Of a DNA stretch of 64,000 nt, positions 9,456 to 12,160 are shown piece after piece. The notes under the pieces were generated by a model that searched no databases, was not told the origin of the DNA, and was given only the letters and a program-made list of their open reading frames with translations. The position numbers were made by a program, and so were the translations under genes. Position 1 is the stretch's first letter; the number at the start of each line of letters is the position of its first letter. Origin of the DNA: Synergistaceae bacterium (GTDB lineage: Bacteria; Synergistota; Synergistia; Synergistales; Synergistaceae); contig JAIRNC010000025.1 in assembly GCA_031258255.1 (NCBI GenBank), positions 1-64,000 of the forward strand. The letters run 5' to 3'.

Positions 9456-11228
9456 ATGTCGGTGACGGACAATAAAGCGGTAAACGAATGGGTGGCTGAA
9501 ATGGCCGCAATGACGAAGCCGGACTCAATCGTGTGGATCGACGGCACGGAGGGGCAGTTGAGCCGCTTGCGAGAACAGGGCGCCGCTTCTGGCGAGATCA
9601 TCCCCCTAAACGAGGAAAAACTGCCCGGCTGCTATCTCCATCGATCTGCCGCAAACGACGTCGCGAGGGTCGAGGGACGCACGTTCATCTGCTCGCGGCG
9701 CCGAGGGGACGCTGGCCCCACCAATAACTGGGAGGATCCGTCCGAGATGTACGCGAAGCTGCGGAGGCTCTTCGAAGGCTCGATGGCCGGGCGCGTGATG
9801 TACGCCATCCCGTTCTCCATGGCCGTGCCGGATTCGCCGTTCGCGAAGTTCGGCATAGAGCTCACGGACTCCATATACGTGGTATTGAACATGGCCATAG
9901 TGACGCGCGTCGGGACGCGCGCGCTGGAATGCCTGGAGGCGAGCGGCGATCCATCCGATTTTACGAAGGGCCTGCACTCCCTCGCCAGCATGGATCCTGA
10001 AAATCGCTACATCGCCCATTTCCCGGAGGACAACGCCATCTGGTCGGTCAATTCGGGCTACGGCGGGAACGCTCTGCTGGGCAAGAAGTGCCTCGCCCTC
10101 CGCCTGGCCTCGCGCATGGGGCGCGACGAGGGATGGCTTGCCGAACACATGCTCATACTGGGGATAGAGAACCCGCGCGGGGAGGTCCACTACATCGCAG
10201 GCGCCTTCCCGTCCGCGTGTGGCAAGACGAACCTCGCGATGCTGGTGCCGCCGGAGATGTATCAGAAGAATGGCTACAGGGCCTGGTGCGTAGGCGACGA
10301 TATCGCCTGGCTGCGCGTCGGGGCGGACGGCCGTCTCTGGGCGGTGAACCCGGAGGTGGGCTTTTTCGGCGTCGCCCCAGGCATGAACATGAAGTCCAAT
10401 CCCAACGCCATGATGGCCTGTCATAAGAACACCATCTTCACGAACGTGGCGCATAATCTCGACGACAACACCGTCTGGTGGGAGAAGATGGACGACAACC
10501 CGCCACGGAACGCCCACGACTGGAAGGGCGACAGGTGGGACGCCTCCCTCGGCACGCCCGGCGCGCACCCCAACAGCCGCTTCACGGCGCCGGCTGCGCA
10601 ATGCCCCTGCATCTCCCCGGAGTTCGAGTCGCCCGTCGGCGTGCCTATCTCCGCTATCGTGTTCGGCGGCAGGAGGAGCAAGGGGACGCCGCTGGTCTAT
10701 CAGGCACGCGATTGGGATCACGGGGTGTTTATAGGCTCGGCGATGTCGAGCGAGAGCACGGCGGCGGCGACCGGGGCGGTGGGCGTGGTCCGCCACGATC
10801 CGATGGCCATGCTGCCCTTCTGTGGCTACCACATGGGCGATTACTTCGCCCACTGGCTGGACATGGGGCAGAGGATACCCAACCCTCCGGGGATATTCCA
10901 CGTCAACTGGTTCCGCAGGGACGAGTCAGGTGGATTCCTCTGGCCGGGCTTTGGCGAGAACATGCGGGTCATCGAGTGGATAATAAACCGCGTCACGGGA
11001 AACGTCGGCGCCAGGGAAACGCCCATAGGCTTCCTGCCGCGCCCGGAGGACATCCACATGGAGGGCCTGGATGTATCTCCCGCAGCTGTCGAGTCACTGC
11101 TCGCCGTGGATAGGGCGTACTGGCTGGATGAAGCGTCCGGCATCCGCGAGTTTTACTCCGCGTTCGGCGACCGTCTGCCAGCCAGGCTGACGGAGGAACT
11201 GGACGCGCTGGAGAGGAACCTCCGATAA
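9456..11228 (+). CDS. pckG: Phosphoenolpyruvate carboxykinase (GTP)
   Basis: 590 aa, standard for GTP-type PEPCK, which interconverts oxaloacetate and PEP. The P-loop (kinase-1) PSACGKTNLAML contains the reactive cysteine near residue 257. The metal and oxaloacetate-binding stretch VGDDIAWLR follows, and NWFRRDE lies near 485. In anaerobes it can run in either direction, feeding gluconeogenesis or capturing CO2 with energy conservation. It fits with the pyrophosphate-type phosphofructokinase at 14411. Its stop is followed at once by the REP/RAYT region. Confidence 0.95.
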   Translation: MSVTDNKAVNEWVAEMAAMTKPDSIVWIDGTEGQLSRLREQGAASGEIIPLNEEKLPGCYLHRSAANDVARVEGRTFICSRRRGDAGPTNNWEDPSEMYAKLRRLFEGSMAGRVMYAIPFSMAVPDSPFAKFGIELTDSIYVVLNMAIVTRVGTRALECLEASGDPSDFTKGLHSLASMDPENRYIAHFPEDNAIWSVNSGYGGNALLGKKCLALRLASRMGRDEGWLAEHMLILGIENPRGEVHYIAGAFPSACGKTNLAMLVPPEMYQKNGYRAWCVGDDIAWLRVGADGRLWAVNPEVGFFGVAPGMNMKSNPNAMMACHKNTIFTNVAHNLDDNTVWWEKMDDNPPRNAHDWKGDRWDASLGTPGAHPNSRFTAPAAQCPCISPEFESPVGVPISAIVFGGRRSKGTPLVYQARDWDHGVFIGSAMSSESTAAATGAVGVVRHDPMAMLPFCGYHMGDYFAHWLDMGQRIPNPPGIFHVNWFRRDESGGFLWPGFGENMRVIEWIINRVTGNVGARETPIGFLPRPEDIHMEGLDVSPAAVESLLAVDRAYWLDEASGIREFYSAFGDRLPARLTEELDALERNLR

Positions 11229-11255
11229 GGGATTGCCGAATCATTGTACGGGCAT

Positions 11256-11361
11256 GTACGGGCAGATCCATGTGTCTGCCCTGGGGGCGTTCGGGGGCGA
11301 AAACATAGGTTCGGGGGCTAACACATAGGTTCTGGGGGCGAACACATAGGTTCGCCCCTAC
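11256..11361. repeat. Inverted REP pair (BIME-like) flanked by RAYT gene fragments
   Basis: A forward REP-like unit (11256-11281, GTACGGGCAG...CTGCCC) faces a reverse one (11336-11361, ending CGCCCCTAC). Between them are degenerate GGGGGCGAACACATAGG units. The left flank TGCCGAATCAT (11234-11244) and the right flank TGTGTGCAATG plus TTCAAA (to 11380) are both also found inside the RAYT gene, in the same positions relative to its own REP pair. Confidence 0.75.
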
Positions 11362-11380
11362 AATGTGTGCAATGTTCAAA

Positions 11381-11516
11381 TGAATACATTGTCATGCCGA
11401 ATCATCGTAGGGGCAGACCTATGTGTCTGCCCAGGGGGTACAATGTGTGCAATGGTTCAAATGAATACATTGTCATGCCGAATCATCGTAGGGGCAGACC
11501 TATGTGTCTGCCCATC
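11381..11516 (+). repeat. Tandem chimeric repeats: RAYT gene fragment plus REP
   Basis: Two direct copies with a period of about 81 bp. Each has TGAATACATTGTCATGCCGA followed by ATCAT (11381-11405 and 11462-11486), identical to RAYT codons for EYIVMPNH at 11755-11779. A REP then follows (GTAGGGGCAGACC...GTCTGCCC, 11407-11432 and 11488-11513). The first copy continues into TGTGTGCAATGGTTCAAA, identical to RAYT codons for the CVQWFK segment. The REP has the GTAG head and imperfect stem recognised by RAYT enzymes. Confidence 0.85.
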
Positions 11517-11539
11517 TGCCCGGGGGGGCGAACACAAAA

Positions 11540-12160
11540 ATGACGCGCGATAAAATACATCGCCGCAGGAGCATCCGTTTAAGGGGTTATGATTATTCGC
11601 AGAACGGCGCATATTTCGTCACAATATGCACGCAGAATCGTGAATGTTTGTTCGGGGATATTGTTGATGGCGAAATGCAAATGAATAATGCGGGCAGAAT
11701 GGTAGAAAAATGGTGTCAGGAAATCACCCGCAAATATACGGACATCCATGTGAATGAATACATTGTCATGCCGAATCATTTTCACGCAATCATCGTCAAC
11801 GCGGATCCCGCACCCGATCCCGATCCCGTACGGGCAGACCTATGTGTCTGCCCTGGGGGCGAACACATGGGCCCTGGGGGCGAACACGGATGTTCGGGGG
11901 GCGAACACGGACGTTCGGGGGGCGCGGGCGAACACATAGGTTCGCCCCTACATCGATGTGTGCAATGGTTCAAAACCATGACCACGAATGAATATATTCG
12001 ATATGTAAAAAACAATGGATGGAAACCGTTTGATAAACGATTGTGGCAACGGAATTATTACGAACATATTATTAGGAGCGATGACGAATACGCCCGCATT
12101 GCCGCATATATCGCCGGTAATCCGATGAATTGGAGGAATGACGGCCTGTGGGCAAATTAG
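11540..12160 (+). CDS. REP-associated tyrosine transposase (RAYT, Y1_Tnp family) with an in-frame REP insertion
   Basis: 206 aa from ATG 11540. The Y1 single-strand transposase fold shows the HUH motif in VMPNHFHAII near residue 80, the catalytic tyrosine in NYYEHIIR near 175, and the usual GYDYSQNGAYFVTICT opening and IAGNPMNW ending. RAYTs bind GTAG-headed REP hairpins and are thought to spread them. Between HFHAII and CVQWFK the protein carries about 45 low-complexity residues (repeated GGEH) encoded by a REP pair that keeps the frame. The AT-rich coding sequence contrasts with its GC-rich neighbours, which suggests transfer. Whether the enlarged loop leaves it active is unknown. Confidence 0.85.
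   Translation: MTRDKIHRRRSIRLRGYDYSQNGAYFVTICTQNRECLFGDIVDGEMQMNNAGRMVEKWCQEITRKYTDIHVNEYIVMPNHFHAIIVNADPAPDPDPVRADLCVCPGGEHMGPGGEHGCSGGEHGRSGGAGEHIGSPLHRCVQWFKTMTTNEYIRYVKNNGWKPFDKRLWQRNYYEHIIRSDDEYARIAAYIAGNPMNWRNDGLWAN
11828..11951. repeat. REP inverted pair inside the RAYT gene
   Basis: Forward REP 11828-11853 (GTACGGGCAGACC...CTGCCC) and reverse REP 11926-11951 (GGGCGAACACATAGG...CCCCTAC) enclose three or four GGGGGCGAACAC units. The whole segment is read in frame by the transposase gene. It has the same organisation as the upstream pair at 11256-11361. Confidence 0.8.

Follow-up and report, generated by a model that had tools for sequence, protein, structure and literature searches.

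A REP array that includes coding sequence of the adjacent RAYT gene in a Synergistaceae draft genome

Where REPs and REPINs come from, and how they spread, is a long-standing question. Repeats that carry recognizable transposase coding DNA record their own source, as well as the points at which copying started and stopped. Transposase genes that carry REPs in frame between the HuH and Y motifs have been classified as TnpAREP subclass 2.4, or RAYT group 4, in the available text of Quentin et al. (2018, PMC6006769), and Bertels and Rainey (2011, PMC3116915) have described tandem clusters of REPINs together with their flanks. For TnpAREPs of groups 2 and 3, cleavage of single-stranded DNA close to REPs and rejoining of the cut strands are documented (PMC8266576); we found no biochemistry of subclass 2.4 enzymes in the literature. 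Given these precedents, the initial annotation of the DNA discussed here was too broad in holding that no case of its form had been described, since in-frame REPs and tandem REPIN clusters with flanks are both published. The statement stands for flanks or spacers made of RAYT coding DNA, which are undescribed in the portion of the literature that we searched.

The DNA analysed (the window) is a stretch of 64,000 nucleotides on contig C96 of a 2.3-Mb draft genome that comprises 130 contigs and is 85% complete. It contains an intact RAYT (TnpAREP) open reading frame on the forward strand at 11540-12160, with an ATG at 11540 and a possible alternative GTG start at 11504. The HuH motif, MPNHFH, lies at 11768-11785 and the Y motif, YIAGNP, near 12107. 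Both are present alongside a match to Pfam Y1_Tnp of 26.6 bits, above the cut-off of 23. The match to NCBIfam NF047646 (57.8 bits, E 1.1e-15) falls below the curated cut-off of 80, and taking out the REP-coded loop left the score no higher. Between the two motifs, at 11828-11951, the gene carries a REP pair with 21-bp half-REP repeats (alignment, folding and TRF) that is translated in frame and whose REPs are mutually inverted, as in a REPIN. Judged by REP position, the gene therefore fits TnpAREP subclass 2.4. The half-REP repeats have a period of 21 bp, or seven codons, within the gene (11855-11944) and of 20-21 bp outside it (11289-11354), as if the reading frame constrained half-REP slippage inside the gene.

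Directly upstream of this gene is an array of three tandem units, all on the forward strand, in which REPs are combined with two segments of RAYT coding DNA. In the gene, the source of the unit heads (the NEYIVMPNH codons, 11753-11779) and the source of the unit tails (the CVQWFK codons, 11956-11973) flank the internal REP pair, just as the initial annotation had stated, and both were located by alignment and shuffles. The order of elements in the units, head, REP or REPs and tail, matches that of the gene. Unit 2 is the clearest example. Its head, AATGAATACATTGTCATGCCGAATCAT (11379-11405), is identical over 27 nt to the NEYIVMPNH codons (alignment, shuffles), and its REP (11407-11432) has a GTAG foot, an 8-bp stem and a 6-nt loop by folding. 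Its tail, ATGTGTGCAATGGTTCAA (11443-11460), is identical over 18 nt to the gene around CVQWFK, an identity with a chance expectation of 0 in shuffles. Unit 3 has the same 27-nt head (11460-11486; alignment, shuffles), followed at 11488-11536 by a REP (11488-11513) and a half-REP remnant that abuts the RAYT start (alignment, folding). Units 2 and 3 have 60 nucleotides in common at a period of 81 bp, which TRF reports as an 81-bp tandem repeat of 1.9 copies with 98% matches, and the GTAG-headed 8-bp stems of their REPs fold with a z of -4.08. When up to 3 mismatches are allowed, the head occurs 3 times in the window, whereas 100 shuffles yielded no match.

Unit 1 is more divergent, and it is here that the earlier description of the units needs correction. 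The expectation that each unit opens with MPNH codons is borne out by the 27-nt heads of units 2 and 3, whereas unit 1 keeps only TGCCGAATCATT (11234-11245), which matches gene positions 11769-11780 at 12 of 12 bases and is preceded by ATTG with 5 nt missing by eye. Likewise, GTAG-headed REPs are found in units 2 and 3, but the first REP of unit 1 is headed by GTAC. Instead of one full REP, as in units 2 and 3, this unit has an inverted, REPIN-like pair at 11246-11361 (alignment, folding, TRF) composed of a partial REP (11246-11254), the GTAC-headed REP (from 11256), half-REP repeats (11289-11354) and an inverted REP whose CTAC end is at 11361. Two units had also been said to end in bases identical to the CVQWFK codons. 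That is exact for the 18 nt of unit 2, but the tail of unit 1, ATGTGTGCAATG-TTCAA (11363-11379; alignment), lacks one G. Despite these differences, flank identities for which zero cases are expected by chance give good support to an origin of the array in the REP-bearing middle of the RAYT gene.

The units also differ from the gene in a consistent manner. The distance from head to REP is 48 nt in the gene but 1 nt in units 2 and 3. A 14-bp loss between two AATCAT repeats had already been recognized and is real, but a further 33 nt, mostly a GATCCC-repeat stretch detected by TRF, are likewise present only in the gene. Every unit shows the 14-bp loss and lacks the sequence that separates the first AATCAT from the REP in the gene, and tail meets head at an identical TTCAA|ATGAATAC in both junctions. 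Because the units have these derived features in common, one founding copy followed by tandem duplication is a better explanation than independent copying. Thus, the gene origin implied by the earlier proposal of repeated copying holds, but a single copying with later duplication is likelier. From this one locus, and as the account that requires the fewest events, we infer a single founding event.

We propose, with a probability of roughly 0.55, that the array is made of local tandem copies of an internally deleted version of the neighbouring RAYT gene, consisting of NEYIVMPNH codons, a REP pair and CVQWFK codons, and that it arose via REP breakpoints through one copying and subsequent duplication. 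The REPs within the gene and those just upstream of it would act as breakpoints, and the in-gene REPs are most likely the breakpoints for copying of the gene core. Breakage or switching of a strand at a REP would probably result from RAYT nicking near REP feet on single-stranded DNA at replication, and to this extent we infer a role for RAYT catalysis in forming the array; possibly, palindrome-induced template switching alone could be the trigger. The upstream REP cluster would have received the gene core in a single copying event that left a short junction and the 14-bp loss between AATCAT repeats. Tandem duplication would then have produced three units, whose REPs were subsequently shortened by unequal loss. 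It counts against this account that the tail-to-head junction lies off the REP foot and that no simple CT/CA signature was found for it. A 10-mer from the 5' part of the gene, CAAATGAATA, was considered as a junction template and set aside as too short.

The RAYT gene and its array are flanked by a phosphoenolpyruvate-carboxykinase-like gene that ends at 11228 and by an opposite-strand RecD2-like helicase gene (both named by eye). In a genome of the same genus (G032), these two neighbours are nearly adjacent and the slot is nearly empty, and in another (G033, L113) a different gene occupies the slot after the carboxykinase-like gene. The array and RAYT gene are therefore lineage-specific at this site. 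In a third genome (G034, L115), the two sides of the slot are on separate contigs; its carboxykinase-like gene is followed by a gene similar to the slot gene of G033.

Within the 85% complete assembly of the window's genome, the RAYT-derived head and tail were found at this locus only, and our search of its contigs yielded no dispersed RAYT-flanked chimeras. Genome-wide dispersal of the REP in many copies was not seen in this incomplete MAG either: a REP query with up to 3 mismatches gave 6 matches, of which the 2 outside the locus (C28:3924 and C16:1547) are without RAYT flanks. The missing 15% or so of the genome could hide further copies. The REP on C16 (1547-1569) lies in frame in a 627-aa open reading frame (137-2020) that by eye resembles a type III modification methylase, and this frame directly follows a RAYT C-terminal fragment at the start of the contig.

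In contrast to this local confinement, the association of gene-derived DNA with RAYT genes recurs across several phyla. Such non-REP DNA flanks the RAYT gene at no fewer than 6 of 80 loci, compared with 6 of 400 cross controls. The positive loci are from Elusimicrobia (L025), Oscillospiraceae (L033), Fibrobacteria (L037), Clostridiales (L058), Clostridia (L065) and Deltaproteobacteria (L082). Five more rows (L032, L055, L067, L071 and L083) were left out of this count because, judged by eye, they reflected unmasked REPs, and L039 is uncertain; the query for related loci included the REP-coded loop, which may bias the sample toward genes with in-gene REPs. Within the family of the window's genome, RAYT remnants in four genomes (G037, G038, G022 and G039) break off at an in-gene REP or directly beside it, and in G039 the QWFK segment is followed by a second REP cluster. 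In-gene REPs offer a testable reason for the tendency of this family's RAYT genes to break at REPs. One locus of G038 (L102) has a RAYT gene truncated early, exactly at the double-foot REP GTAGGGGCGAATAATTATTCGCCCCTAC.

Some of these loci bear on an alternative, also raised in the initial annotation, that we consider unlikely, in which the array is the remnant of full-length tandem RAYT copies that arose when in-gene REPs underwent unequal crossing-over with 5' REPs and that later lost their N- and C-terminal parts. Partial RAYT genes are indeed stacked head to tail at L033 and on two contigs (C116 and C72) of the genome in which it resides, and the downstream array of L058 retains the catalytic-Tyr-side region. 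However, N- and C-terminal RAYT codons are missing from all three units in the window, and every unit would have to have acquired an identical deletion junction unless the units were re-amplified.

A somewhat more doubtful explanation is that the RAYT protein mobilises the segment of head, REP pair and tail as a mini-element, inserting copies beside existing REPs. What speaks for it comes from the genome of L033 (G192), an Oscillospiraceae MAG unrelated to the window's genome, where one full-length RAYT gene was found among 46 protein matches. This gene has two mutually inverted REPs, REP1 at 100-124 and REP2 at 233-257, with the HuH codons in between. Among 53 RAYT fragments of at least 45 nt, coverage is 36 at gene position 241 but drops sharply to 1 at 261 and to 0 from 281, so that the fragments terminate at the outer edge of an in-gene REP. 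The HuH-coding core is present in 38 copies on 26 contigs, the gene's own included; 29 of the 38 have the REP2 foot nearby, and there are 21 distinct 8-nt right flanks. Independent sites and defined ends, as in a MITE family, are thus largely evident in G192 and absent from the window's genome, which has no copies elsewhere. Part of the G192 family is larger than the REP pair, since some copies have longer flanks in common. Such a distribution points to lineages in which the core of the gene has turned into a dispersed REPIN-like element. It also supports, in an unrelated genome, the suggestion that REP spread carries transposase DNA, which is not supported in the window's genome, where the flanks occupy a single locus and other REPs lack them.

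Even so, the mini-element explanation transfers poorly to the window. The RAYT DNA of G192 lies mainly between REPs, but that of the window lies outside them, and a comparable dispersed family was seen in none of the other scanned genomes. Within the genomes of L016-L047, flank queries returned only the gene and other RAYTs among the best 10 or so candidates per genome, and spacer queries in 11 genomes revealed no dispersed family, with the REP-rich G230 giving matches of REP length only. G192 also has tandem units, on C116, of N-terminal and HuH codons, REP and downstream codons, in a layout similar to that of the window. On another of its contigs (C36, 490-830; L162), REP1 forms a tandem array with a period of about 43 bp and units ending in the gene-derived GAATGATT. 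Several RAYT fragments in this genome (for example at L161, L163 and L219) contain another repeat just after REP1, with TACTAATCTCAATTATAAAAGCC at one end and, at the other, ATTTGAGATTAGTAT in some copies and AATTAAATTAGTAT in others.

An assembly artefact is very improbable: repeats assemble badly and this short-read MAG is in 130 contigs and 85% complete, but the units are distinct from one another as well as from the gene, and similar arrays are present in separate assemblies of different origin.

Our preferred reading of the array, as an internally deleted derivative of the gene, and the dozens of copies that G192 contains alongside a single full-length gene, with a sharply defined boundary, raise a broader possibility. 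A RAYT gene with two in-gene REPs may act as a REPIN donor, whose HuH core could be mobilised such that REPIN families are born in the gene with gene sequence as their spacer, as in G192. We consider this plausible, if somewhat short of an even bet.

Several known systems share parts of this organization. As in a REPtron, a RAYT gene is accompanied by adjacent REPs, but in the window these are upstream only and are joined to gene fragments. The G192 elements resemble MITEs and internally deleted IS derivatives in being short, multi-copy and composed of transposase-gene DNA between palindromes; however, their boundaries are in-gene REPs and not the termini of an autonomous element, and the window shows no dispersal. 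Tandem REPIN clusters (PMC3116915) likewise repeat a REPIN together with its flank, whereas the flanks in the window are coding DNA of the neighbouring RAYT gene. Subclass 2.4 also has REPs both in frame within the transposase gene and flanking it, but the available text of its description (PMC6006769) contains no REP arrays or dispersed REPs with RAYT coding DNA such as those reported here. Finally, REPs inside open reading frames (PMC3733652) are read through in frame, as is also the case for the methylase-like frame on C16. In the window, by comparison, the host gene is the REP-associated transposase itself.
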